NCBI RefSeq assembly: GCF_004364345.1
Contig: NZ_SOCA01000001.1
Coordinates: 1,116,001-1,180,000, forward strand
Direction: 5' to 3'
Length of the DNA stretch: 64,000 nucleotides
Origin: Prosthecobacter fusiformis
GTDB lineage: Bacteria > Verrucomicrobiota > Verrucomicrobiia > Verrucomicrobiales > Verrucomicrobiaceae
Shown here: positions 28,322-55,760 of the stretch, piece by piece
Position numbering within the stretch: position 1 is the first letter of the stretch
How the letters are laid out: every line of letters starts with the position of its first letter
Made by a program: the position numbers and the translations under genes
Notes under the pieces: generated by a model
What the model saw: only the letters and a program-made list of their open reading frames with translations
Told to the model about the DNA's origin: nothing
Database searches by the model: none

Positions 28322-28776
28322 CTAAAGCATTCCGACATAACGGTTTAGCTGCTGTTTCTGAAGCGATTCCCCCGGATGGCCAGCCATTCTTCTAGATGAG
28401 CAGGGCAAACATTGCGGACCTGAAATTTGCTGCCATACAGCCACCAGCCCAGAAATTCGTCTCTGACACCTTCGATGATGTCGATGGGCCTGGCTGACTT
28501 CCCCGCATCCACCGCCAGCAGGCGTTTGAAGAGGTCTTCGAGCGTGGTCTTTTCCACCGAAGTGTCAACCCGCCCAAGTTCGTCGATCCAGGCCTTGAGC
28601 CGCCGTTCTGCAATCTTGCGATCCGTGGTTTTGAGGGAGCGCTCCTTGCGTTTGCCCTCGACCTTCTTGATGCCCAGATACATGCCCGAGCGCGTGTTCC
28701 GATACAGTCCGGCGATGCCAGGGACTTTGATGAAATCGGGCGCGGGTGCAGATGATGAACTGGAGGCGGGAGGCAT
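28322..28776 (-). pseudogene. Decayed tyrosine recombinase (integrase), N-terminal part
   Basis: The open frame 28345-28776 codes 143 residues. They look like the arm-binding and core-binding start of a phage-type integrase: GLYRNTRSGMYLGIKKVEGK, KTTDRKIAERRLKAWIDEL, TTLEDLFKRLLAVDAGKSA and VCPAHLEEWLAIRGNRF. The frame ends at RNSS. One base later, the next frame continues with LNRYVGML, as expected after NSS in this family, and then meets TAG at 28322. A one-base deletion therefore broke the gene, and the catalytic domain with the Arg-His-Arg-Tyr residues is gone. It marks the left side of the accessory island. Confidence 0.75.
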
Positions 28777-29037: not shown

Positions 29038-30534
29038 TCAAACCAAGCCTACGGCACGCATCTCATTCACCAGCTCAACTGCTGATGCTGCCGTAGCAAC
29101 AAGGAAGGCGGATGTCATATCCACGCCGTTCTGGTGGTTTTTGAAATCACCTGCCTCTTGGATGTGGGCGATCAATATGAAGTGCTTCCGGTTCGCCTTC
29201 TTCGGACTACTCTCCCATTTTCGGTCATCGGTCATGGCATCGAGTAACTCGACCAAGCCACTCCGATTCTCGGGCCAGCGGCGTTCGACCTTCAGCCATG
29301 GCGGCCCGCTTCTCAGAGCTGGGACCATGTGACTGGGCGATTCCACATCCCAAATGACATTCAGAGCCTCCTCTGCAATGTCACGGAATGCTCGTGATGC
29401 TTTGTCTGGTCGTTCCAGGGACTCGATGGCGTCGCGCACGTTCGAGACCAGTTCACATTCTTCGTCCATTTTGGGGCCAAGGCGCATGGCGAGCACCTGT
29501 TTCATCGAGTTCAAATATGATGCTTCGGTGCCGAACCATTCCTTAAGCAAAACGGTTCCCTTGGCTGCTCCGGCTCCAAAATCCTGCATGAGGCGACATG
29601 TGGGCTTCAGGTTGCCTCCAGCACTCGTGAGAAGGCCAAGACACTTCAGCTTCCGTGCACCATTGCTTGGAGTCGTTACATTGCCCGTGCGTCCAGCCGT
29701 GATGAAGACATCTCGCTCATCGGGATCAAGGTCCTGCCAGATGAGTTCCAGTTCCTCGGCACGTTCTTGGACGATGGCTTGGGCGGCAGCGTTGATGAGT
29801 TCCACTTCCAGAGGCACTGTATCAGCCAACTTTGAAGCCTCCTCGCACAATGCGATCACGAGGGAAGGATTTCCACCGGATGCACTGAGGAGGGCTGGCG
29901 CAACACCACTAGACCCCACGCCTCCTATTTGGAGTATCGCCATGATGTCCTCCACAGTCATTGGTTGGATGTCGATAGGGTTTTTGAAACGATCCGACAT
30001 CAGGGAGTCACGCTTCTCACGGGTGTTGCAGAGTTCCCGAATCCGTTTCCGTGAAATGCAAAGGAATGTCACCGGCGCTCGTTCCACAAAGTTGCAGAGG
30101 AATGACCAAGCGGTCTGGAGTGACACAAAAGCATCATCAATGCCGTCGAGGATGAACAGCACTTTGTGCCCTGCGCTTTCCCAGTCATCCACCGTAGTGT
30201 TGAGCTTCTCCTCGACAGGTGATTCCAAATTAGGGTCCAACCATTCAGTGCTTGCCTCCGGCGGCAGTTGCTGGCGAATGTCCTGAATCAGAGCCTCATA
30301 AAACGTTTCGTCGCCATCAATGCCACGGCCTTTGAGTTCGCAGAACACGATGGCGTTGAACATCTGCTTCGTGACACTATGTGCCGCCAGCGCCCGCACC
30401 ACACAGCTCTTTCCAGTGCCGCGAGGCCCCGTGAGACTGATGTTCCGACGGGCCAATTCGCGTTGAAGCTGGGTGATAAGAGCGGTCCTACCGAGGGCGG
30501 GCTGGGCTTTATAGCGATAGTCAGAGAAGGTCAT
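29038..30534 (-). CDS. AAA/STAND-type ATPase, partner of the 1380-residue protein
   Basis: From ATG 30534 the protein has 498 residues starting MTFSDYRYKAQPALGR. Walker A is SLTGPRGTGKSCVVRAL (about residues 32-48) and Walker B is VLFILDGIDDA (about 122-132), followed by a sensor-like LCISRKRI. Helices with PALLSASGGNPSLVIALCEEA form the lid typical of ORC/STAND ATPases. A winged-helix-like segment comes next, then a C-terminal region of about 140 residues (HFILIAHIQEAGDFKNHQNG) I do not recognise. The start overlaps the upstream gene by 14 bases, or by 35 if ATG 30555 is used, so the two are made together. No nuclease motif is visible. Confidence 0.75.
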   Translation of the reverse strand: MTFSDYRYKAQPALGRTALITQLQRELARRNISLTGPRGTGKSCVVRALAAHSVTKQMFNAIVFCELKGRGIDGDETFYEALIQDIRQQLPPEASTEWLDPNLESPVEEKLNTTVDDWESAGHKVLFILDGIDDAFVSLQTAWSFLCNFVERAPVTFLCISRKRIRELCNTREKRDSLMSDRFKNPIDIQPMTVEDIMAILQIGGVGSSGVAPALLSASGGNPSLVIALCEEASKLADTVPLEVELINAAAQAIVQERAEELELIWQDLDPDERDVFITAGRTGNVTTPSNGARKLKCLGLLTSAGGNLKPTCRLMQDFGAGAAKGTVLLKEWFGTEASYLNSMKQVLAMRLGPKMDEECELVSNVRDAIESLERPDKASRAFRDIAEEALNVIWDVESPSHMVPALRSGPPWLKVERRWPENRSGLVELLDAMTDDRKWESSPKKANRKHFILIAHIQEAGDFKNHQNGVDMTSAFLVATAASAVELVNEMRAVGLV

Positions 30535-33500
30535 GGTTGTCGGGAGATGATTCATCGCTCTCGGCGACTTCGGCGCAGACGGCGGCGAAATCCTGGTGAC
30601 GACGCAACCAGAGGGCGAACAAAGGAACTTCAAAAGCGAGGTCTTCGACCTGATCGTTGATGGTGGAACTCAAGACATCTTGGTCTTTGAGCGCGTCGAG
30701 GTCGGCTTTGAGCTGTTGGAGGCTCTCGAAGCGGAGTCCGCTTTCCTCCGCCTGTTCTCGGAGCAGCACAGGGCGCACGGCCTGCTCATCGCGGGCCATT
30801 TGCTCCAAGACGAGCACCAGGGCCTGCCTTCGCGAGTTGCCGATATCATCCCAGAGACGGGCAAAGGTTTCAGAGTCCTCGATTTGTTCCTGGGCCGCCT
30901 CACGCACCATTTCCAGAGAAATCAGCACGGCGTGGCGATCCGTACTCATGTCAAACAACCGTCCGCAAAGAGTTTGGATCAGCAAGGGCTGACGTCCTGT
31001 AAGGCGAACGATCTCTGTCACTGCCTCGGGCGAATAGGCAAGATGCCCATGCACGGGTTGAGTGACAAGTTCAGCAGCCTCTGCTGGTTCCAGACCACGC
31101 AGTTGTAGGCTTTGGCCCAGGTTGAAGAGCACGTTCCAATACTGCTGACGCAGCCGCCTGATCTTCAGCGAGCCCGTCAGGATGGCAGCGAGCTGTGGGT
31201 GGTCCTGCAACAGGTTGCGAAAGTTTTCAGGCACCTGGCTGCCCGTCACACCTGAATCGATGCCTGACTGGATGAGGTCAAACTCATCAAACATGAAAAG
31301 CAGCCGCTTCTCACCCAAGACAGACAGTGCGGCTTCCAGAATATGGAGGAAACGTTCAAAGGGTGCGCCCTCGTTGAAGAATGTCTCCAGGTCCCTGAGC
31401 AGCAGGCGCTTAGTCTCTGTGGGCAGTCCGGCACTCACGTGGCCCAAACCGGCTATGGGAACGGCTAGTCCAGAATCGCTCGCGGCTTCCAGCACTTTCT
31501 TGGCGATGCCTTGAAAAATGCGCCGATCGGGGATGCCGGACGACTTGCTCTTGGTTCCGCCTGAGGCTCCAGGGAAGCGCTGAAAATTGATGTCCACGGG
31601 CAGCCATTTGGCGAGGTCCAGCCGGTGGGTGCGGTAGTATAGCAGCAGCGAGCTTTTTCCGATTCGGCGGTTTCCTTCGACGATCAGCACGGTCGTGCGA
31701 TTGCCGCGTGAGAAGGCTTGGTCCATACGATGAAGCGCTTCTTTTCGGCCATAAAACATCTCATCCTTGCCACCCACCGGGCTGCCACCGTCCACATAGG
31801 GGTTCTGTTGCACGGCGGTGGAGGCCGTGCGCAGCGACACAACGTTCACTTGTTCCTCGATGACTCCATTGAATTCGCGACCATCCAAGGTGCGTGCCTT
31901 CCATTGCACCCGAATGGGCAGCGGCCCTGCATTCGTCGCATGAACAATCACGGGCAGTTTGAGGCCGTCTGCACAGGCAAGCATCTTGGCATGATTTCGG
32001 CCTTCGTTGACGGACACCATTACATCTTGAAGGGACAACGGTGACAGGTTTCCAAGTTCAACTGTGACTACCGTTTGTGTGGCTACGGTCACTTCCTGAG
32101 GTTCCAGTGTGACATGCAGTTTTACGGGCTGGCATTGCCGCCCAATCTCTGTAGCTGCCAGTTCGCCCATGCGTCGGAGCAGCGTTTTGCCTCGGTGAGT
32201 GATGCCGTCCTTTTGCAGTTCATCAGCGTTCGGAGCGGTGCTGTCTTCCAGCATTTGGGTGATCCTTTCCACAGCGCTGGCGAGTGCTTTTTCGCTCTCC
32301 AGAAACGCGTGCTGCCAGAATAGCAGCAGAGTAAGCCGGTCATAGCCTGGATTTGTTCGAAGCGCTTCGAGCAGTCGATGCACAAGCGCATCCACCTCGA
32401 TCCACCAATCGTGCAGCCCACCCTTGGGAATGGCCTCATTGAAGCTGTCTTTCCATGTTTGCAGTGACCAGCTGAGTCTTCCCAGCCATGCTTCCACTGC
32501 CTTCGCGGACTCAGGCGCAAACGTCGCTCGCATCGCCTCGCATTCGCTGAAAAAGGCCAGTGTTGGGTCCTGGCGCAGACGGTCGTCAAAGACGCTGATG
32601 GCTGTCTCAAGTGGATGACCTTGAAGGAGGTGCTCGCCGATTGCATCCAGGATCTCGTCCGGGCCGTCAATCATGGGCATTGACTTCAAATCACGCAGTA
32701 CTAGGTGCTGGATCACTGAGCCGGTGGCCAGCCCCTGCAGCCAAGCCATGCCCGCTTTGGATCTCAGGATGCCCACGATGTGGCGAATGGTTTTCTCCTC
32801 CATGCCCAATTTGGGACGGATGATGATGATCGAATGCGAGGCCACACAGCGGCGCTCTTCTTCAGCAAAGACACTGACCTTGTCCACCGTGCCGGTGCCG
32901 GAGAGCAGGATGTCCCACGGGCGCAGAAGCTGCCGCTCCCGCACCTCACTGGAGGCTTGCGGGGTGAGCAGCAGGGTTGGCGGCTGGCAGAGCGGCAGGG
33001 CGGCATCAGAGTCTACCTTCCGCGTCAAGTCACTCACACGGATGAGGCCCACGAGTTCATTTGGCTCACGTTCTCGCAGCTCAGCTGCACGGAGGGTCCG
33101 TTCCCTGGTGTAGGCAATGCCTTTGGAGCAATCCGCCACCTCTTCCAGGGTGGTGAGACGGAGTTGGGGCTTGGCGGCCACCAGGAGATGCAGCGAGCGC
33201 TTCAGATCCCCTTGCAGGTCTCTGGGCCAGGTGAACTCCACGTCATGTTCTTCCCAGGAGTCGCGAGGCACGATGCCTGTGCGCAGTTCGGAGAGGCGAC
33301 CGATTTTCGGAGGTGGCGAACTCAGGTTTGCCAGCCCTCGGGCCAGGGCCAACATCTCAGCACGTTCCTCGGCATATGCTGGATTGACCTTCTTAGAGTC
33401 TTCCCGCAGAGCGGTGAGATCGGCATCATTGACCGCGCCCATGGCCGTCCGCAGCAGGAGGCTTAGTAGGTTTAGTTGTGGCTGCGTGGGGGCGAAATCA

Positions 33501-34663
33501 GCGTCCTCCAGGCAGCGTTTCACAAGCGGCTCACCCACAAACAAGCAAGCGTTGGCCGTGTGGCCTCGACTCAGCAGCAGCAGTAAGCTGGTCACACGGG
33601 TCGCAGTGCCAGTAGCAGTATCAGATGGCAGCTCCGCCACGGCATGAAGTTGCTGGTGATCCACCAGCCAGCGTCGCAGAGATTGGTCGGAACCGTTGCG
33701 GGCCAGGGAGCGTGGCATCCAGGCAATGAGTCGGCCCGTGGGTAAAAGCCCTGCGAGCGCCCGTTGGAGCACGACGCTCTCCACCCGGCGAGAAGGTACT
33801 GGCACATCCGTCTGATCCTCGGGCATCACGGCACCCCAGGGCGGTGCGGCGATCACCCAGTCATAGACCGGCTCGGGGTTCAGCAGATTCGGGGCCTCCA
33901 GAACCACGTCAGGCTGCTCCACCTCATGGGCCAACAGGAGGGCAAGTGCTTGTTCGGCAAAACTGGCGCTGCCGGTGCTCACGGTCACTCCATGCCGGGC
34001 CATATTCGTGAGTTGATTAGCAGGCGTGTAGCGGGCTAGTCGTGCCAGGCGATCCAGTAGCTCATTCAGCAAATGGATATTCTCCCCGCCAGCCAACAGC
34101 ACGCGGTGATGCGGCTGGATGGCGGCGAGATCACGCAGCAGCAATTGCATGGGATAGCTGGCTAGGCTGAGCCCGTCGGAGCGATGCTCGCCGATGCCCC
34201 AGAGCAGGAGCCGGAAGTGCTCTTGAAACCACCCGGCAAAGGTTTGTTTCTGACTTGGTTTGAAGCACTGGATGACACGAGCCGCCAACGCCGTAGCTGA
34301 CTCCAGCTGCACAGGCCAATGGCTGCGGAGGCTCATGCGCTGGCGAAGTGCCTGGGTGCGGGTGGGCCAATGGTGAACGCTAGCCTTGTAGCTATGCCAC
34401 CAGGCATTCAACCCGGCGTATTGCTTCTCCTCCCAAGCCTGTGCCCAGGGCGGCACCGGCAGTTCTTCCCATGCCCTGCCCTCAAACTCCAGGCCCGCGA
34501 TCTCCGAGGCATCCCGCTCCTCCAGCATGGTCAGCGAACCCAGGAGGGAAAACGCATGGACAAACTCCGCTGGACTCACGCCCTGCTGGCGCAGCACGCG
34601 CGTCCACTCGTCCGGGTCATCGGGCAGGCGCAGGGAAATAGAAGATAACGGAGGAACAGGCAT
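30521..34663 (-). CDS. Fusion of methyltransferase-like, HsdS-like TRD and AAA ATPase domains
   Basis: A 1380-residue cytoplasmic protein. Residues about 100-470 follow the N6-adenine methylase (HsdM) pattern, but the S-adenosylmethionine motif is lost (VLLAGGENIHLL near 183-197). The catalytic NPP[YF] is replaced by APPWG near 273-277, so it is probably inactive. Residues about 497-663 look like an HsdS target-recognition domain, from LRLTTLEEVADCSKGIAYTR through RPWDILLSGTGTVDKVSVF to VIQHLVLRDLKSMPMI. A helical stretch and a CARDB/Ig-like beta-sandwich (about 849-942) follow. Then comes an ATPase with a GRKEALHRMD entry, Walker A EGNRRIGKSSLLL (about 996-1008) and Walker B LLFMFDEFDLI (about 1122-1132), and a lid with LTGRQPLLIQTLCGRLFD. 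I recognise no named family for the whole. Confidence 0.8.
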   Translation of the reverse strand: MPVPPLSSISLRLPDDPDEWTRVLRQQGVSPAEFVHAFSLLGSLTMLEERDASEIAGLEFEGRAWEELPVPPWAQAWEEKQYAGLNAWWHSYKASVHHWPTRTQALRQRMSLRSHWPVQLESATALAARVIQCFKPSQKQTFAGWFQEHFRLLLWGIGEHRSDGLSLASYPMQLLLRDLAAIQPHHRVLLAGGENIHLLNELLDRLARLARYTPANQLTNMARHGVTVSTGSASFAEQALALLLAHEVEQPDVVLEAPNLLNPEPVYDWVIAAPPWGAVMPEDQTDVPVPSRRVESVVLQRALAGLLPTGRLIAWMPRSLARNGSDQSLRRWLVDHQQLHAVAELPSDTATGTATRVTSLLLLLSRGHTANACLFVGEPLVKRCLEDADFAPTQPQLNLLSLLLRTAMGAVNDADLTALREDSKKVNPAYAEERAEMLALARGLANLSSPPPKIGRLSELRTGIVPRDSWEEHDVEFTWPRDLQGDLKRSLHLLVAAKPQLRLTTLEEVADCSKGIAYTRERTLRAAELREREPNELVGLIRVSDLTRKVDSDAALPLCQPPTLLLTPQASSEVRERQLLRPWDILLSGTGTVDKVSVFAEEERRCVASHSIIIIRPKLGMEEKTIRHIVGILRSKAGMAWLQGLATGSVIQHLVLRDLKSMPMIDGPDEILDAIGEHLLQGHPLETAISVFDDRLRQDPTLAFFSECEAMRATFAPESAKAVEAWLGRLSWSLQTWKDSFNEAIPKGGLHDWWIEVDALVHRLLEALRTNPGYDRLTLLLFWQHAFLESEKALASAVERITQMLEDSTAPNADELQKDGITHRGKTLLRRMGELAATEIGRQCQPVKLHVTLEPQEVTVATQTVVTVELGNLSPLSLQDVMVSVNEGRNHAKMLACADGLKLPVIVHATNAGPLPIRVQWKARTLDGREFNGVIEEQVNVVSLRTASTAVQQNPYVDGGSPVGGKDEMFYGRKEALHRMDQAFSRGNRTTVLIVEGNRRIGKSSLLLYYRTHRLDLAKWLPVDINFQRFPGASGGTKSKSSGIPDRRIFQGIAKKVLEAASDSGLAVPIAGLGHVSAGLPTETKRLLLRDLETFFNEGAPFERFLHILEAALSVLGEKRLLFMFDEFDLIQSGIDSGVTGSQVPENFRNLLQDHPQLAAILTGSLKIRRLRQQYWNVLFNLGQSLQLRGLEPAEAAELVTQPVHGHLAYSPEAVTEIVRLTGRQPLLIQTLCGRLFDMSTDRHAVLISLEMVREAAQEQIEDSETFARLWDDIGNSRRQALVLVLEQMARDEQAVRPVLLREQAEESGLRFESLQQLKADLDALKDQDVLSSTINDQVEDLAFEVPLFALWLRRHQDFAAVCAEVAESDESSPDNHDLL

Positions 34664-34799
34664 GAAGGGCTAAAGACGAACAACGAAGGCTTCGCGGAGG
34701 ACAGCGTGGATGCTAGCACAGTGGTAAAACTGGCCGGAAGTGAATACTGCCAACCTTGCACCGCTTTAGTGTTGCGCGCCAGTGGCTCGATGTCATGGT

Positions 34800-34819
34800 C
34801 CATAACTTTTCAGTTATGG
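34800..34819. promoter_or_regulatory. Inverted repeat over the LysR start codon, possible operator
   Basis: CCATAAC at 34800-34806 and GTTATGG at 34813-34819 are perfect 7-base inverted arms with a six-base spacer. The ATG of the LysR-type gene lies in the right arm. ATAAC-N6-GTTAT resembles the dyads bound by LysR-type regulators, so autoregulation, with effects on the divergent large gene 150 bases away, is possible. A translational hairpin is an alternative. Confidence 0.45.
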
Positions 34820-35709
34820 ATGATCTCTTCGCACAAGGTGGCCTTTCGCTAGAGCGGCTTCGGACGTTCTGCCTGATCGTCGAGCACGGAGGCTTTACGA
34901 GAGCGGCCCGTGGTGATGCGGCAAAACAACCCCTTTACAGCCGTCAGCTCAAGGAGCTGGAATCGTTCTTTGGCACTGAACTCGTGCGGAGGTCAGGAAA
35001 ATCTTTTGCCCTGAATGATGAAGGCAGGCGGCTCTATGAGCTGGCACGGAGCTACTTCGGAGCATTGTCAGACTTCAAAAACGCCTGTTCCAACCGCTCC
35101 ATTCACATTCACCTTGGTGCTGGAGACAGCATCATCCAGTGGCACATCCTTCCAAAACTGGCGGACATCAGAAACGCACTACCCAACACGGTGCTCAAGC
35201 TTCTCAACCTACCGACGGAACAGATTGTGGACCGGGTTGCCTCTGGCGACCTAGACCTTGGAGTCGTTCGTCAAACCGCAGTGAAAGGTGATTTGAAGTC
35301 ACACGTTCTCGGCAAGTTGGAGTTTGCTCTTTTTGCCCCCATACGCTACGCCAACAACAACTGGGAATCGACTCTGAGAAGCTGTCCTTTGGTTTTGCTT
35401 GAAGGCTCAGGAGAGTTTCGGAAAGAGCTGGAGAAAGCCGCACTTAAGGAGCAATTCCAGCCACGAATCGAAGTAGAATGCGCTTCATTTCCTGCAGTGG
35501 CAACAGCAATGAAAAGCGCAGGTCTTGCAGGGATTCTTCCTCTTGCCGCCGCTGATGAGCTTGGAACTCGGAGCTTTGTTCGCCAAGAGGCATCCTGGCT
35601 GCAAAAGTTAGGAAGGCAGATGACACTGATTGCCAGTCGTCGTACTCTAACTCTGCGTCCTGACTTGGAAATGATTGCAAAAGAACTTGTAGGCCTGTTA
35701 CGAGCCTAG
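34816..35709 (+). CDS. LysR-family transcriptional regulator
   Basis: ATG 34816 (MDDLFAQGGLSLERLRTFCL) gives 297 residues. The helix-turn-helix is LIVEHGGFTRAARGDAAKQP, then LYSRQLKELESFFGTELVRR, a divergent LysR domain. The effector domain follows from about residue 90 (IHIHLGAGDSIIQWHILPKL) and includes DLDLGVVRQ. Earlier ATGs at 34795 and 34756 are possible but would add residues not usual in this family. The gene is divergent from the 1380-residue gene, with about 150 bases between starts, so it may control that system. The ligand cannot be judged. Confidence 0.85.
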   Translation: MDDLFAQGGLSLERLRTFCLIVEHGGFTRAARGDAAKQPLYSRQLKELESFFGTELVRRSGKSFALNDEGRRLYELARSYFGALSDFKNACSNRSIHIHLGAGDSIIQWHILPKLADIRNALPNTVLKLLNLPTEQIVDRVASGDLDLGVVRQTAVKGDLKSHVLGKLEFALFAPIRYANNNWESTLRSCPLVLLEGSGEFRKELEKAALKEQFQPRIEVECASFPAVATAMKSAGLAGILPLAAADELGTRSFVRQEASWLQKLGRQMTLIASRRTLTLRPDLEMIAKELVGLLRA

Positions 35710-36251
35710 TCCAGATCCCATTGTTGTACAATCACAATCCATGGACCACCCCCTCCCCCAAAATGACTCATTCTTCCCTAGCAGAGGGGGACTCTTAGGG
35801 GGGACTCGCTGCTTTTTGAGGCATGGAACCACCCTTAAATCCGTTGATTATCAACGGATTGAACGCTGAAACCTACCCCTTCAGGCCTTCCTGACGAACG
35901 AAGGGTTGAAGCCTTCGTGCGCAACTGTATGAACCTCTTCTAAACTGTTCACATCCAAGGATTTCCAAGGAAGAACATGCCGCCCAGACAGCCGCTCAGA
36001 TTATACCTACCCACTTTACTCGAAGACTGAAATGGACTGGAAATTACCCTTATACCACCCGGAGGGGGGGCAAATCGGGGGGGGGGGGAAATTCATGGTG
36101 GGCGAAAGAGTTCCTAAATCTACATTGCGCAGTGGATTCAAAGTGACTCATTCCCCTTTGGCAGGGGGACTCCTCGGGGGAACCTTGTGTTTTTTGTGGG
36201 GATGGCCACCCTCTCAACATGTTGATTATCAACATCTTAAGTTGCCGGAAA
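35710..36251. other. Intergenic region with duplicated accC 3' end
   Basis: No gene is present. The region holds two imperfect copies of one segment (35764-35907 and 36144-36286, listed separately) and, between them, G-rich sequence with a run of seven G at 36064-36070 and twelve G at 36077-36088. The short open frames across this area have no family features. It separates the LysR gene from accC. Confidence 0.7.
35764..35907. repeat. Direct repeat copy 1, carrying a decayed accC 3' end
   Basis: This segment matches 36144-36286 along its length. Shared blocks are TGACTCATTC, a G-rich run with GGGGGACTC, GTTGATTATCAAC and the CTTCA-GCCTTC block. Read on the minus strand, its end codes QPFVRQEGLKG and a stop, close to the true accC terminus [10 protein letters not shown]. 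It contains a 10-base inverted repeat with a TTA spacer (35838-35860), AATCCGTTGA/TCAACGGATT. Confidence 0.75.
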
Positions 36252-49391: not shown

Positions 49392-52300
49392 TTACGGCTC
49401 TTCTGCGGGAGGATCTTCTTCTGGCGGATCCTCTACAGTGGGTTCTTCAAAGCTGAGGCTAAACGTTTCACTAGCTATTGGTGACAGGTTGGCAGCGTTG
49501 CGAACGGTCACGTGATAAGTACCGGAATCTTCGGTTGTTGGAGTGGTAATCGTATATTGGGCGCTATCGCCGCCTTCCTCGATTTCTTCGCCATTTTTAT
49601 ACCATTGATAAAAATAAACTGGATAGATGGCAGGAGATGGAGTGGCCGTCATGCTGAAGGTCGCATTCAAAGGCGGTGTGAGTGTATCGGGATTTCTTGT
49701 AACACTGACCGAAGTCACCGGGAGTTGCACATTCAGGCCCTTAACGCTGCTTTCCACAGAGCTAGGAGTGCCGTTGATATTGTTGGAAATCGTCACCGTG
49801 TATTCCCCTTCATCATTCGAGGTGAGTTCAGGGATCTCATATGTGGAGGAGGTTGCATTCTCGATGATCTCTCCGTCCTTTTTCCAAACGTAGCCAAACT
49901 CGGGTTCTCCCAGTGCTTCGGCAGAGAAGACCACACGCTTGCCAAGGGGAACGTAGGTATCTGAAGGACTGCGAGTGAGCGAGACATTGGACACACTGCT
50001 ACTGACAAGAAGAGGAACGCCCTCGCTGATGACATAATCTGTCGTCACTGCATTCTTGACGCCGACTTTATACACGCCTTGATCCGCACCGCGCAGGAAG
50101 CCGATGGTGTAGGTGGCGGAAGTGGCTCCCTGGATCTCCACATTTTCGTCCCCAACCACCTTATACCACTGATACTCATAAGGCCCCTGACTATCCACGG
50201 TGAGGCTGAAGGTCAGATTTCGATAGCCGTATCCGATGGTGTCCTCAGGGGGGGTGCGCTGGGCCACGACGCTGGTGATCGGATAGTCCACCGTGAGCAC
50301 ATTCGCCGAACTTTTCAGTTCGTGCCCAGTGCTTGTATCCGTCACGACAACGTAATATTTGCCTGCTGAATCACTGGTCACGTTTGTGATGCTATAAGTG
50401 TCAGACGTCTCCCCTGCGATATCATCTTCATCGCTATCATCCGTATTGGCTTTTCTCCATTGATATGTGTATGGGCCTGTACCAGCCACGGAAGTGACTT
50501 CAAAGACGATCGGGGTAGAGCTGCCAATAGGCACCGGGTTCGTAGCCGGGGTGCGAGTGACCACGATGTTGGTGATGAGGTTGTTCACGGTCAGGACAGC
50601 TGGCTGGCTGGTGACAGTGGAAAGAGATGTTTTGACGACCACATCGTAAGTACCCTGGCTGCTCTCGGTGATGTTGGTCAGTGCAAGAGTGGATGCCGTC
50701 TTGCCACTGATATTCACACCGTCTTTCCGCCACTGGTAGGTGACAGAAATACCCGTCGGCGGGGTGGCAACCACGGTGAAGGTATGGTCAACAGCAGCCT
50801 GGCCAGTAATGGTGGGATTCAGTGTCACCGACTGTGGATGCTGGGTAATGAGGACTGGCAGAGGATTGAGAACCACACTGCCGGACAAAATGGGCGCGGT
50901 CTTGATTGTAGTCGTCGGAGGTGTGTCCGAAGGCAACTGGCCGAGGAGGAAATAACCGACACCCAGCCCATCGGCACCCGTGACGGCAGGTGAGTCCGTA
51001 TAATAAAAACCGGCAGCCGCAGTGGGGATGCGCGGGATGATGAGTCCGAGAAAGGTGGCGGTGCGGGAAGGGGCACCAGTTGGGGCCACTTTGAAGCTCC
51101 CGCTGATGAGGCCTACGTCCGGAGTGATGGTCAAGCTGAGGCCCCCAGCATTCGCCACCCCTGGCGTAATCGGGATGAGTTTGCTTGTACCAATGCTGAG
51201 CTGGGCTACATCCGGATTCATCCCGGCGAATTCAAGACCGCCATCTTCAAAATCAATGCTGGCATTGCCGGGAGTATCTTTAGGCAGGTCCAGGATCAGT
51301 TTGTTCGTTCCCGGCTTAAGGTAGGTACCACCCCTGACACTAAGGACTTGGGTGCTGAAACCTGCTTTGTAATTACGCTCACTGGCGGTCGTCTGCGGGG
51401 CTTTCGTCCAGGCAACAGCACCATCCAGACGGTAGATGAAATTGGAGCTGTTTTGTGTGCTGGGCAATTCAACGATGAGCATCTTGGGCTGCCCGATGAC
51501 AGAGCCAGTGCTTTTATACAGGGACTGATAAACGAGGAACTGTTCCTGCCCGCCTACAAATGAACTGGCAGTGACGGTCGTGCCGTCCGCCATGCGCCCT
51601 GACATCTTGGCGGTGCCATTGTTGTCGGTTGTTACCACGAGGTAACCCGTGCCCTGGGGCACAGCCTCATTGCCCACGTCGTCTCCAGTAAGAGTCAGTG
51701 CCACATGGTGACGGCCCACATAGCCGGAAAAGCCAGCCCTGGCACTGTTGTATTTGTTGCGATAGGCAGAGAAGGCCACGGCATTTTCACCGTCGGTGAT
51801 GATGCCTGAGACATCGCCACTGACGTCATAACCCGAAGGTGCGATGGAGGATAAAGTGAGCGTGAGAGTATCCTTGCCCTTCCGGATGATGGTGGCCTTG
51901 CCAGAAGTATAAATAGAGCCGGGGGTCTGGGTCATCAAGCCGGTGAAGCTGATGACTTCCTTGCCCTGGCTCAGCTTGCCGCTGATGACGCCAGTATCCG
52001 TCACTGTCATGTCCACACGCCCGCCCATGTTGTTGTTAAAATAAGTGGAGTTGGCGATCTGTCCCACAAAGGAACCCACGACGGCCTCCGGCATCGGCCG
52101 GACATTCATGGTGATATTGGAAAGGGTGGATGATCCCTTCGGATTTTTGGCCGTCAGCTTCATGATATACTGGCCATAGCGCGTAGCTTTGCCGGTGATC
52201 CGGCCGGTCACGGTATCCAGCTTCAAGCCGGTAGGCAGGCCGGTGAGAGAAAATGAGGCGATGCTGAAGTTCGTGTCTCCACCGCCAGGGATCTGGTAGT

Positions 52301-55300
52301 CGTATTCAATACCCACATACGCATCGGGCGGCGTGAAGGCAGCGAGTGTGGGTGCAGCTCCGGCAAAGCCCACTCTCCAGGGTCCAGTCTCCGCATTGTG
52401 GGACGCATCCACCGCATCCTCCACATAGCAGGTGTATTCACCGGTATCAGACTGCCCAAAAGTTTTGATCGTCAGGGTGGGGCTGGCGGCACCGGAGATT
52501 TTATTTGGGATGTCAATCACCGTGGTCGTTGAGTCTTTCTTCCACTGATACTTCAGATTTGGCCCGGACACCTGGGCCTTCAGCACCACAGTTTTAGCAG
52601 GCAGTGACATCATGAGGCGGGAGGATTTATCCACCACGATGACGCTGGCAGCACTGCTGTCCGCACGGGTCACAACGTTGCTGGCACGCATCACGTAGCT
52701 GCCGCCGTCGGTGAGCTTGGTCACTGGGATGTTCAATACAGCGGCCTTCTGTCCACTGACGGTGGAGTTCGTGCGCAGCCAAGTGATCGTCGGCACGGGG
52801 GCACCTCTGACTTCAGTGGTCAGAACCAGGGGGTCACCCAGCTTCACCACTTTCCTAACCGGATGTGTATCAATCACCGGCGGTGCACGGAAGTCCAACC
52901 GGGCGGTGACGCTGGTGAGGGTCATGCTGATGTTGCTGACCAGCACACGGTATTCGCCCGTATCAGAATTTTGCAATGCAGCAAAGGTCAGGACGTTCTT
53001 CTTGGCAGTGAGGTTGGTATCTGGGACATTTTCCCACACTTCACCGACCCGCTTCTGCCACTGATAAGTGAGTGCCGTACCTGTGGCCGTGACACTTAAA
53101 GTGGCTTTTTTATCCGGCAGCACAGCCAAGGAAACTGGCTGGCGCGTGATGACCGGGAGCTTGTGCCCCTTGATGACCGTGACAGTGAAGCTGTCTTCCA
53201 CAGGATTGTTATCCAGGTCCCGTGCACGCACGGTGACGGTGCTGGTGCCTGCCAGCAAACCTTCCAGCCGCAGGACACCATTGAGGATGCTGGTGCGGAC
53301 GATGGTGGGAGCGCTGTTTTCCACCACCTCATATTTGAAGAGGGCCACTTCCTTTGCACTGCGAATCTGCACCGTGCTATTGATGTCCATTTTGGCAGGG
53401 GCAGTGCCACCCGTCACATTCATGGGCACGTCCACCATTTCAGTTTGGTAACCGTCCAGGATGACCCCCGTTGTGGTATCTGACGAGCTAGGTGAATAGT
53501 CCCCAATTGGCAGTGCTACCATGTCATCGACCAAATCCATCCCTGAGCCTGCGACACGGCCAAAGACGGTGAAACCGGAGTTTTGGTTGTCCAGGTTTTC
53601 GACATAATTGGTTACACCACGAGCGTCATTATTTGCTACCAAGTTAAAGAAGAAATCATGAGTGGCGCTATCCGGGTTATCCCCCACTTTGGCATGCGCT
53701 ACGGTACCACGGACATTGGAAATACCGGGTTCATTTTCTGATGGCGGGCGCTTGAGGAGGGAGGTGAAGTAGTTTGGCGAATCAGTAGGCACATAGCCCC
53801 CTCCCTGCAAAATGAAGCCTGGAATAGACCGGTGGAAAATGACGCCGTTGTAAGCCCCGGTTTCCACATAGCCCATGAAGTTTTCCACCGCCTTGGGAGT
53901 CAGGCTATCATACAGCAAGAGGTCAATAATGCCCAAGCTGGTATCCAGGCGGACAGCCTTTTCAGAATCCGCATCGGTGAAGCGTCCGTTCAGGTCGATG
54001 GTATGCTGCGTGGCGGTTCCCAGGATTACGTCCGTAATAGGGGAAGCCAACACAGGTGTGGCATCGTCTTTTAGGATGCGCAGGGTCAGGGTCACTTCCG
54101 CGACGTTATCTGGATAAACGACCTCCATCGGGCAATGGAAGACGCCGGACTCTGTGGGCGTACCGCTGATGAGGCCATCGGCATTCATTTCGAGGCCAGG
54201 TGGCAGATCATCCACACTCCAGGAAGTTCGGTTAGGGCTGTCTGAGACGGCCATCTGGTAAGTGAAAGGGTCGTTCACCTTCGCAGGCTGGTGCGTGCGG
54301 CTGGTGAAACCATGCCGGGCATACGCGCGGGCGACGTTGCTCTCCGCTGCAGCAACATCGCCGACAAAGTTGCTATGAAGGGCATCCACCCTGAATTCAT
54401 ATTCTACATTCGGTGTTAGCAGAACAGATGTGGTGCTGCTGGTATTATAGCCCGTGACGGTGGCCTTGGTCGTGCCTGGCTGCATGTCCATGGAGTCATA
54501 CCATGTATCGCTGGTGCCGCCCGAGGGGCGTACATAGATTCGGTAAATGGTCTCCCCAATGGTGTTATCACCCCACGTTAGGTCCACGGCAGCGGACTTG
54601 CCAGAGGTCGTCGCCACAAGTTGTCCGGGACTGATCAGATCATCCATGATCACCGGAAGTTCATCCGTGTAATCTGCGGACGTGGCCGCAGGTGACCCGG
54701 TTGGTGGAACAGCGCGCACTTTCCAAATGTAGGTCCCCCCAGGACCAATCGCAGCCGTGATGGATGTCGAATTGGCAGCCATCGTATAGGTATTCCAAGT
54801 GATCGCCTCCGATTCATTTTCTACAGGCTTGCGGTATGAAATTTCGTATCCGGTTTCATTGTCAGTATTATCCTCCCAGGTCAGACGGATGTTGGATTCA
54901 TCCAGTTTTTCAGCCTGGAGATTTGTTGGCACCTTCACCGCAGGCACTGTGTAGGAAGAAAGACCTCCAGGATAGGTCAGGCTGGTAATATATCGTTTTT
55001 CACTGGCCGTATTCGATGTCACTTCCGTGGCGGTTGCGTCATCCTTCCGGGTGGCGCGGAGCATAAAATGATACGCCTGATTGGGCACCAACCCATGCTG
55101 CACCCAGACAGTGGTGCGGGTGGTCAATGCTTCTTTGTTATCAAAGTAGGACAGTCCTCCGGGAAGCGGAGCATAGTTTTCATCCCCTGTCAGGCTCGCT
55201 TTCTTGTAGAAGATTTGGAAATATAATTCCCCTGTACTATTGTCCTTCCAGCTGAATTCCAGTATGCCATCGGAGACCTCATTATCCTTTGAGTATGTAG

Positions 55301-55760
55301 CTACGCGGAAGTCCTGTGGCGCACTCAGGGTGGAACCGGTCGTTTTGATCGTTTGATCCACCAAGGAACTGGCTGCGGTTTCAAAAGAGGATCCATTGCT
55401 TTTAAATGCAACTACCCTGACCTGAAACAGGGTATCCACCGGGAGCTGTACTCCGATGAATTCGCAGTAGGTCACCCCGGCATTGACGGAGGTATAATAA
55501 TTCCATATCCCAGCATTCCCCAGCCGGTATTCCACACGGAAGCCGGATTCATCCAGGGAATTGTCCTTCCATGTCAGCAGGAAGTTCCGCTTGGTATTCG
55601 CGGCGGTCGGCGCATCGGCCATCGTGGACTTCAGCACTAAGTTGGTGGGTGCCTTCGGTGCTACGGCTGAAGCGGTGCCTGCCAGACCGGCCAGCACGAC
55701 CATCATGGGCAGCATCAAGGCGCGAGCATGACGGGAAATAGAGTCGGGGAAGCGCAGCAT
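49392..55760 (-). CDS. Giant secreted Fn3/Ig-like protein with embedded cyclophilin domain
   Basis: A 2122-residue protein with a signal peptide (ALMLPMMVVLAGLAGTASA). Residues about 36-480 are fibronectin type III repeats (APTNLVLKSTMADAPTA, VPTNLQAEKLDESNIRLTWED). A putative-Ig domain follows at about 490-575 and a complete cyclophilin-type peptidyl-prolyl isomerase at about 600-755 (VIFHRSIPGFILQGGGYV, GTVAHAKVGDNPDSATHDFF). Ig-like repeats come next (about 800-1110), another putative-Ig domain (about 1145-1225), a beta-rich region to about 1620 and more Ig-like repeats to about 2105. The tail is acidic and Pro-rich (PPEEDPPAEEP). No sorting domain is recognised. It is likely a surface or matrix protein. 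Confidence 0.88.
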   Translation of the reverse strand: MLRFPDSISRHARALMLPMMVVLAGLAGTASAVAPKAPTNLVLKSTMADAPTAANTKRNFLLTWKDNSLDESGFRVEYRLGNAGIWNYYTSVNAGVTYCEFIGVQLPVDTLFQVRVVAFKSNGSSFETAASSLVDQTIKTTGSTLSAPQDFRVATYSKDNEVSDGILEFSWKDNSTGELYFQIFYKKASLTGDENYAPLPGGLSYFDNKEALTTRTTVWVQHGLVPNQAYHFMLRATRKDDATATEVTSNTASEKRYITSLTYPGGLSSYTVPAVKVPTNLQAEKLDESNIRLTWEDNTDNETGYEISYRKPVENESEAITWNTYTMAANSTSITAAIGPGGTYIWKVRAVPPTGSPAATSADYTDELPVIMDDLISPGQLVATTSGKSAAVDLTWGDNTIGETIYRIYVRPSGGTSDTWYDSMDMQPGTTKATVTGYNTSSTTSVLLTPNVEYEFRVDALHSNFVGDVAAAESNVARAYARHGFTSRTHQPAKVNDPFTYQMAVSDSPNRTSWSVDDLPPGLEMNADGLISGTPTESGVFHCPMEVVYPDNVAEVTLTLRILKDDATPVLASPITDVILGTATQHTIDLNGRFTDADSEKAVRLDTSLGIIDLLLYDSLTPKAVENFMGYVETGAYNGVIFHRSIPGFILQGGGYVPTDSPNYFTSLLKRPPSENEPGISNVRGTVAHAKVGDNPDSATHDFFFNLVANNDARGVTNYVENLDNQNSGFTVFGRVAGSGMDLVDDMVALPIGDYSPSSSDTTTGVILDGYQTEMVDVPMNVTGGTAPAKMDINSTVQIRSAKEVALFKYEVVENSAPTIVRTSILNGVLRLEGLLAGTSTVTVRARDLDNNPVEDSFTVTVIKGHKLPVITRQPVSLAVLPDKKATLSVTATGTALTYQWQKRVGEVWENVPDTNLTAKKNVLTFAALQNSDTGEYRVLVSNISMTLTSVTARLDFRAPPVIDTHPVRKVVKLGDPLVLTTEVRGAPVPTITWLRTNSTVSGQKAAVLNIPVTKLTDGGSYVMRASNVVTRADSSAASVIVVDKSSRLMMSLPAKTVVLKAQVSGPNLKYQWKKDSTTTVIDIPNKISGAASPTLTIKTFGQSDTGEYTCYVEDAVDASHNAETGPWRVGFAGAAPTLAAFTPPDAYVGIEYDYQIPGGGDTNFSIASFSLTGLPTGLKLDTVTGRITGKATRYGQYIMKLTAKNPKGSSTLSNITMNVRPMPEAVVGSFVGQIANSTYFNNNMGGRVDMTVTDTGVISGKLSQGKEVISFTGLMTQTPGSIYTSGKATIIRKGKDTLTLTLSSIAPSGYDVSGDVSGIITDGENAVAFSAYRNKYNSARAGFSGYVGRHHVALTLTGDDVGNEAVPQGTGYLVVTTDNNGTAKMSGRMADGTTVTASSFVGGQEQFLVYQSLYKSTGSVIGQPKMLIVELPSTQNSSNFIYRLDGAVAWTKAPQTTASERNYKAGFSTQVLSVRGGTYLKPGTNKLILDLPKDTPGNASIDFEDGGLEFAGMNPDVAQLSIGTSKLIPITPGVANAGGLSLTITPDVGLISGSFKVAPTGAPSRTATFLGLIIPRIPTAAAGFYYTDSPAVTGADGLGVGYFLLGQLPSDTPPTTTIKTAPILSGSVVLNPLPVLITQHPQSVTLNPTITGQAAVDHTFTVVATPPTGISVTYQWRKDGVNISGKTASTLALTNITESSQGTYDVVVKTSLSTVTSQPAVLTVNNLITNIVVTRTPATNPVPIGSSTPIVFEVTSVAGTGPYTYQWRKANTDDSDEDDIAGETSDTYSITNVTSDSAGKYYVVVTDTSTGHELKSSANVLTVDYPITSVVAQRTPPEDTIGYGYRNLTFSLTVDSQGPYEYQWYKVVGDENVEIQGATSATYTIGFLRGADQGVYKVGVKNAVTTDYVISEGVPLLVSSSVSNVSLTRSPSDTYVPLGKRVVFSAEALGEPEFGYVWKKDGEIIENATSSTYEIPELTSNDEGEYTVTISNNINGTPSSVESSVKGLNVQLPVTSVSVTRNPDTLTPPLNATFSMTATPSPAIYPVYFYQWYKNGEEIEEGGDSAQYTITTPTTEDSGTYHVTVRNAANLSPIASETFSLSFEEPTVEDPPEEDPPAEEP

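Follow-up and report, generated by a model that had tools for sequence, protein, structure and literature searches.

A pair of overlapping genes, here called F and B, was analyzed in the window, a stretch of 64,000 nucleotides from Prosthecobacter fusiformis (contig NZ_SOCA01000001.1). F encodes a fusion of a methylase-like region, a target recognition domain (TRD) and an ATPase, and B encodes a second ATPase. With slightly better than even probability, the pair is a two-protein switch made from type I restriction parts, in which F acts as a methylase-derived DNA-site sensor and signals by ATP to B. The predicted role of F-B is probably antiviral. An earlier note on the window had proposed DNA recognition through the TRD and signalling through ATP hydrolysis, and a TRD-guided ATPase still appears to be the likely logic of the pair. 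The same note had presented F-B as a stand-alone pair, which was not borne out: in most genomes (26 of the 40 loci whose upstream sequence reached far enough) F-B closes a conserved type I restriction operon, and the window holds the form without the operon. Judged by these comparisons, F-B is an offshoot of restriction-modification and no free-standing invention.

The domain order first read in F (HsdM-like region, HsdS-like TRD, beta-sandwich, STAND/AAA-type ATPase) held in profile searches. With the single protein the matches were weak: the HsdM-like part matched N6_Mtase (E 1e-4), and the TRD matched the PADLOC model Specificity_I (E 2e-7) and Esub1 (8vsr, E 1e-4). A family profile of 41 F sequences matched the HsdM structure 5ybb_A with E 3e-92 and the HsdS structures 5ybb_D and 3okg with E of about 1e-24. 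The three-dimensional structure of the C-terminal half was modelled with AlphaFold2 and reached a predicted local distance difference test score (pLDDT) of 86. The model consisted of a helical spacer, an eight-stranded beta-sandwich, an AAA+ ATPase and a winged helix. The sandwich had been labelled CARDB/immunoglobulin (Ig)-like; its eight strands stood in this confident model, but the name CARDB was unsupported, with no Pfam CARDB match. The modelled ATPase and winged helix resembled archaeal ORC2 (1w5t) and the CED-4/Apaf-1/NLR group. Walker A (GNRRIGKS, 31649-31681) and Walker B (MFDEFD, 31277-31294) of F were both intact. AAA_16 was matched in 40 of 40 F members and in 46 of the 48 B members scanned.

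The model of B (pLDDT 87) resembled ORC/Cdc6 and CED-4/NLR folds in its N-terminal part, and the Walker A and B motifs of both ATPases, four in all, were intact in the window. The last 120 residues of B were compared as a family profile with DUF4145, a HEPN family (PMC3710099). The hhalign score was 32.3 (E 1.2e-4), while the maximum of 60 column-shuffled controls was 17.3 and the reversed control scored 13.9. The order of helices in the model also fits a HEPN-type domain. The C-terminal domain of B is therefore likely to be a HEPN domain, as far as profile and model indicate. HEPN_Swt1 was tried as a relative and was unsupported (hhalign score 16.6). The histidine of the HEPN motif Rx4H was found in 50 of 50 B homologues and the intact motif in 11. 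Window B keeps E405 and H474, and the arginine of Rx4H is missing (GDFKNH, 29134-29151). The pair had been described as having no obvious effector; this description has to be revised, since B ends in a DUF4145/HEPN-like domain.

Homologues were searched in 84,980 GTDB species genomes with a query that included two made-up alignment rows, solely for a looser pattern, and tblastn with the segment of the window itself confirmed each locus. The scan gave 49 F-B loci with 47–55% identity across the ATPase segment. They span more than 10 phyla, including Verrucomicrobia, several proteobacterial groups, Planctomycetes, Acidobacteria, Gemmatimonadetes, Cyanobacteria, Spirochaetes, Chloroflexi and Latescibacteria. 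F was followed by B in all 49 loci. The earlier note had named repeated co-occurrence of the two genes, in islands or beside defence genes, as support, and such neighbours were present at several loci: SIR2 with HerA, McrBC, a dynamin pair, E1/E2/JAB and WYL. A tblastn search in plasmids gave a locus of Acinetobacter ursingii with a WYL regulator, an HsdR-like protein, F and B. Insertion sequence (IS)-truncated copies of F-B were found in 3 of 5426 E. coli genomes. No relatives were found in viral contigs scanned with five queries, and the pair was absent from the other 387 genomes of the phylum and 383 of the class that were sampled.

In the 26 loci mentioned above, hsdR, hsdM and hsdS lie directly upstream of F-B in the same direction; two further loci have hsdM/hsdS at the contig edge. 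A sigma-54 activator heads the operon in 18 of these 26 loci, giving six genes (activator, hsdR, hsdM, hsdS, F and B). Such operons include L022, L024, L026, L028, L029, L034, L038, L051, L053, L056 and L061, with 45–79% identity among intact activators. The best Pfam match of the activator N-terminal domain was RtcR (divergent CARF), below the threshold. In three loci without hsdRMS (L032, L040 and L041) the activator stands directly before F-B, and in a fourth (L065) two small genes intervene. Activator identity was 64–74% across four phyla, copies upstream of hsdRMS-free F-B included. In these four loci the middle of the operon is absent and both ends remain. Decaying scraps of hsdR/hsdS were found upstream of F-B at L048 and L052. 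At L014 and L043 the helicase motifs of HsdR are eroded, and HsdM and HsdS are missing as separate proteins. Over 22 loci, F, B, HsdM and HsdR had correlated pairwise distances (rho 0.74–0.88, p ≤ 0.0005 by permutation); shared host ancestry is not taken out by this test, but the loci are spread over many phyla.

Some individual loci had features of their own. The Acinetobacter F-B operon at L014 lies on a 317 kb plasmid that also has a predicted aac(3)-IId gene; beside the operon, an E2-E1-JAB fusion and a metallohydrolase (L014:546-4019) form a further probable defence cassette. The WYL-R-F-B copies on two other A. ursingii plasmids (L015, L016) are in many short frames, with pieces 91–94% identical, which could be due to decay or to sequencing error. 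In two E. coli chromosomes (L017, L018), what remains of F-B is interrupted by IS3 and lies next to hipBA; genes for an integrase and a protein kinase are close by. In Minicystis (L053:6714-10750) two proteins take the place of F, one with methylase and TRD and one with the ATPase. The long F of Planctomycetes CA13 (L055:6518-12022) was considered as a carrier of an effector and was found instead to contain a second AAA ATPase in tandem. The contig of L061 is labelled as a Klebsiella pneumoniae metagenome-assembled genome (MAG). Its F forms a tight group with the F of L051, an unclassified Pseudomonadota MAG, and is separate from the enterobacterial copies; the label may be wrong.

The methylase motifs of F were compared with those of the partner HsdM. 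In all five-gene loci the partner HsdM has NPPY, and HsdR there has ExK and DECH. Motif I of F, which binds S-adenosylmethionine (SAM; DPC..G), was kept in 42 of 44 copies. Motif IV (N/D/S-PP) was present in 20 of 27 F copies linked to hsdRMS versus 1 of 15 hsdRMS-free copies (Fisher 5e-5). The methyltransferase-like region of window F is HsdM-like as first described, but motifs I and IV are both lost, and largely so in its nearest relative, L019. Because its methylase part is degenerate, window F should not methylate. The HsdS of the same operon was no nearer to the TRD of F than other HsdS proteins were (mean rank 15.4 of 29). A common site for F and its HsdS was considered and rejected, the F TRD being no copy of the operon HsdS TRD. 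Therefore, F probably reads a target site of its own.

The locus nearest to the window form was L019, from Verrucomicrobia RA.bin74, which has the same order of a divergent LysR gene, F and B. Its LysR was 45% identical to that of the window, and the next best in the host genome was 28% identical. F of the window and F of L019 grouped with support of 100/98. The absence of an HsdR nuclease from the window had been noted before and was confirmed: none was found beside the pair, and neither HSDR_N nor Methylase_S had a match anywhere in the 99.9% complete host genome. Other N6_Mtase matches of the host genome lie in frames of 941–1191 codons. No type I partner in trans therefore appears to be available. 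Two of these frames, with 1071 and 1191 codons (L113, L114), possibly belong to type IIG or BREX-like systems. The window presumably carries an acquired island whose F-B arm functions on its own or has long done so. These results suggested that the stand-alone pair is a restriction part turned into a sensor.

The following mechanism is proposed. The computation shows the architecture, its conservation, the operon setting, the loss of motifs and the intact ATPases; DNA sensing by F, signalling from F to B, the antiviral role and control by LysR are inferred. F would keep the DNA-site reader of a type I enzyme, a methylase scaffold with one TRD, to which an ORC/STAND AAA+ ATPase was added. It would scan DNA for its own site or for the modification state there. 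At a foreign site the ATPase of F would change state and engage B, whose C-terminal domain would act, by RNA cleavage where Rx4H is intact, or would scaffold another response. In most genomes F-B may be a second line within an inducible restriction operon switched on by the RtcR/CARF-like activator. By analogy with RtcR (PMC11090510, PMC4012209), the activator may sense RNA ends with cyclic phosphates, and HEPN nucleases themselves can produce such ends. A precedent is PrrC, a nuclease with ATPase and HEPN parts that a type I enzyme restrains (PMC3710099). In the window the pair would work without restriction and would probably be controlled by the divergent LysR; F would be able to bind but not to methylate. 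The output is the least certain step there, as F is not expected to methylate nor B to show canonical HEPN catalysis.

A bolder form of this proposal, which is held only tentatively, makes F-B a self-sufficient class of STAND-type immune receptors. The dead restriction methylase and TRD would then be the ligand sensor for unmodified foreign sites or, where the SAM motif is kept, for SAM depletion by phage SAM-destroying enzymes. It would trigger the partner ATPase-HEPN effector, guard restriction, and outlive the loss of restriction as in the window.

Several findings weigh against the switch from restriction parts or against its antiviral role. The hhalign probability for the B C-terminus and DUF4145 was only 54%, and direct Pfam HEPN matches of B were weak (E 0.09–0.12). 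The HEPN arginine is absent from 39 of 50 B proteins, the window copy among them. The link of motif IV to hsdRMS falls to about 3:0 in tree-independent pairs (p 0.25, not significant). Window F is very diverged (branch 1.94, 24% identity to L019), which makes relaxed selection possible, and the grouping of the window with L019 leans on the shared LysR because both branches are long. The LysR gene and the dyad at its start are not specific to defence. Another explanation is that the window pair is a fading remnant of a restriction island that has lost its sensor motifs, hsdRMS, integrase and function. This is unlikely. The lost motif I, the long branch, the truncated integrase and the lack of HSDR_N and Methylase_S matches in the host genome agree with it, and the decaying pieces at L048 and L052 show a route. 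However, the 1380- and 505-amino-acid frames are uninterrupted with all four Walker motifs intact, and the LysR-F-B layout is common to L019 despite 24% identity and has therefore been kept for long.

A somewhat less improbable alternative, though still a doubtful one, is that F-B is a BrxC-like assembly and licensing part of the restriction enzyme. Its ATPases would load or gate HsdR, F with an intact catalytic motif would add a second methylation mark, and F-B would have no killing function of its own. The co-variation of F-B with HsdR and HsdM is consistent with such a part, ORC/Cdc6 ATPases belong to the core of BREX (PMC12839542), and NPPW/DPPW in many F proteins linked to hsdRMS could still be active. 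On the other hand, F-B occurs without hsdRMS and with intact ATPase motifs in the window and at L019, L032, L040, L041, L065, L020, L021, L027 and L033, and the F TRD differs from that of its own HsdS. Least probable, at long odds, is that the hsdRMS-free forms bind DNA to regulate transcription or the chromosome, in conjunction with LysR or sigma-54, and have no defence function. Several of these pairs do adjoin regulator genes, and both ATPases are of the ORC/Cdc6-like, DNA-binding class. Complete restriction operons are headed by the same sigma-54 activator, which is therefore inherited system control, and the distribution is patchy, the pair being in none of the other Verrucomicrobiota-type genomes sampled; both points argue against regulators.

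The pair was compared with known systems. The N-terminal half of F corresponds to HsdM plus half an HsdS of EcoEI-like type I restriction-modification, and in most cases F-B closes an hsdRMS operon that is complete and seems to be active. F differs in that methylase, a single TRD and an ATPase are fused, and B comes in addition. The window has no HsdR (present in 26 related loci), no catalytic methylase (LLAGGENIHLL, APPW) and no two-TRD HsdS. BREX and the DUF499-centred, BREX-related Hma systems (PMC12839542) also combine an N6-methylase/TRD with a helicase and an ORC/Cdc6-STAND AAA+ ATPase, in some cases together with HEPN. In F-B, by contrast, methylase and ATPase are one chain whose cooperation is predicted, and the core is hsdRMS. 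No DUF499 or BrxC-type match was listed for F or B members in the Pfam and PADLOC scans. PrrC-EcoprrI (PMC3710099) likewise has an ATPase fused to a HEPN-type domain and encoded with hsdRMS. F-B has two ORC/STAND ATPases, whereas PrrC has one ABC ATPase; its sensor is a methylase-TRD fusion, and most B proteins, including that of the window, lack the HEPN arginine. AVAST/STAND receptors share a STAND/ORC AAA+ ATPase with winged helix, but the F-B sensor is methylase-TRD without TPR-like repeats, and there is no N-terminal effector. Among the genes scanned, only weak matches to the MADS models mad5 (S), mad2 (methylase) and mad8 were found, with about 20 bits versus NCBIfam cut-offs of 400 and 720; those to mad5 and mad2 may reflect the shared HsdS/HsdM folds.

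The link to the regulator is already known. CARF-NtrC proteins were noted near restriction systems in 2014 (PMC4012209), and restriction superoperons led by RtcR (CoCoNuTs) were described in 2024 (PMC11090510). The F-B operon has in common with them an RtcR/CARF-like sigma-54 activator heading a type I restriction operon and differs in having no McrB/coiled-coil nuclease pair; the window has LysR instead. F and B were not found in these papers as far as read. PADLOC has no model for B, and F matched generic methylase and specificity models only. No description of F-B was found in the literature searched, with subscription journals and most preprints outside reach. The statement that no described system has this order of domains was largely upheld. 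F-B is thus a widespread and apparently undescribed module, which would be a variant of restriction-associated ATPase defence set apart from BREX, MADS and type I restriction.

If the proposed switch is real, one of the oldest known antiviral systems has gained a two-gene, ATP-driven sensor arm in more than 10 phyla. Its parts are annotated as 'N-6 DNA methylase' and 'ATP-binding protein', which is apparently why it was missed. It would also show a route by which a restriction methylase became a signalling receptor. Whether type I systems have a built-in backup that fires when restriction fails is made testable, and hsdRMS-free copies such as that of the window would isolate the sensor arm for study.

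The features of the window are listed in Table 1. Both frames of the pair, first read as a long frame with a second ATPase gene overlapping its 3' end, are real and have full-length homologues. The open frame of B covers 29038-30633 (-), and a TTG start at 30633 would give 531 amino acids. Homologues support a start at ATG 30555 (or 30534), which leaves an overlap with F of about 35 (or 14) nucleotides.

Table 1. Features of the F-B locus (window positions)
Feature	Position	Strand	Remarks
F, methylase/TRD/beta-sandwich/ATPase fusion	30521..34663	-	1380 amino acids
F residues ~1-460, HsdM-like methyltransferase domain, degenerate	33284..34663	-	N6_Mtase; family profile
F residues 189-199, LLAGGENIHLL, position of SAM-binding motif I (DPCFGxG in relatives), lost	34067..34099	-	
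F residues 272-277, AAPPWG, position of catalytic motif IV (NPPY in partner HsdM), first residue lost	33833..33850	-	
F residues ~495-700, one HsdS-type TRD (half HsdS)	32564..33181	-	
F residues ~701-848, helical spacer	32120..32563	-	AlphaFold2 model
F residues ~849-942, Ig-like beta-sandwich	31838..32119	-	eight strands in model
F residues ~970-1290, ORC/Cdc6/STAND-type AAA+ ATPase	30794..31756	-	
F residues ~1291-1370, C-terminal winged helix	30554..30793	-	model; ORC2 1w5t_A, template modelling (TM) score 0.63
B, second ORC/STAND-type ATPase gene	29038..30555	-	505 amino acids from ATG 30555
B residues ~383-505, DUF4145/HEPN-like four-helix domain	29038..29409	-	hhalign
Truncated tyrosine-recombinase N-terminal fragment (DUF6538-like)	28345..28776	-	143 amino acids, downstream of B
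LysR regulator, divergent from F	34816..35709	+	open frame from 34756, likely start ATG 34816; Pfam HTH_1 and LysR_substrate
Candidate operator, perfect 8-bp inverted repeat TCCATAAC-N6-GTTATGGA over the LysR start	34799..34820	.	

One flank of the island is nuoD/nuoE, which are core genes. The other is a pair that we take to be accC/accB-like core genes, from its own sequence. The flanking LysR regulator was correctly recognized before, as its Pfam matches show. The decayed integrase on the other side held in so far as an N-terminal-type fragment is present; with E 2e-4 its DUF6538 match was weak and missed the cut-off, and the 143 residues contain no catalytic domain. A conserved LysR operator was rejected, since the window dyad is not present at L019. 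Beside LysR, positions 35759-36199 contain two diverged copies (71–77%) of an intergenic element with G runs, 380 bp apart; no further copies were found elsewhere in the host genome. Farther along the window, 49392-55760 (-) encodes a 2122-amino-acid protein that combines Ig-like domains and a cyclophilin-type isomerase domain with a stretch resembling solved phage tail and Ig-like proteins.

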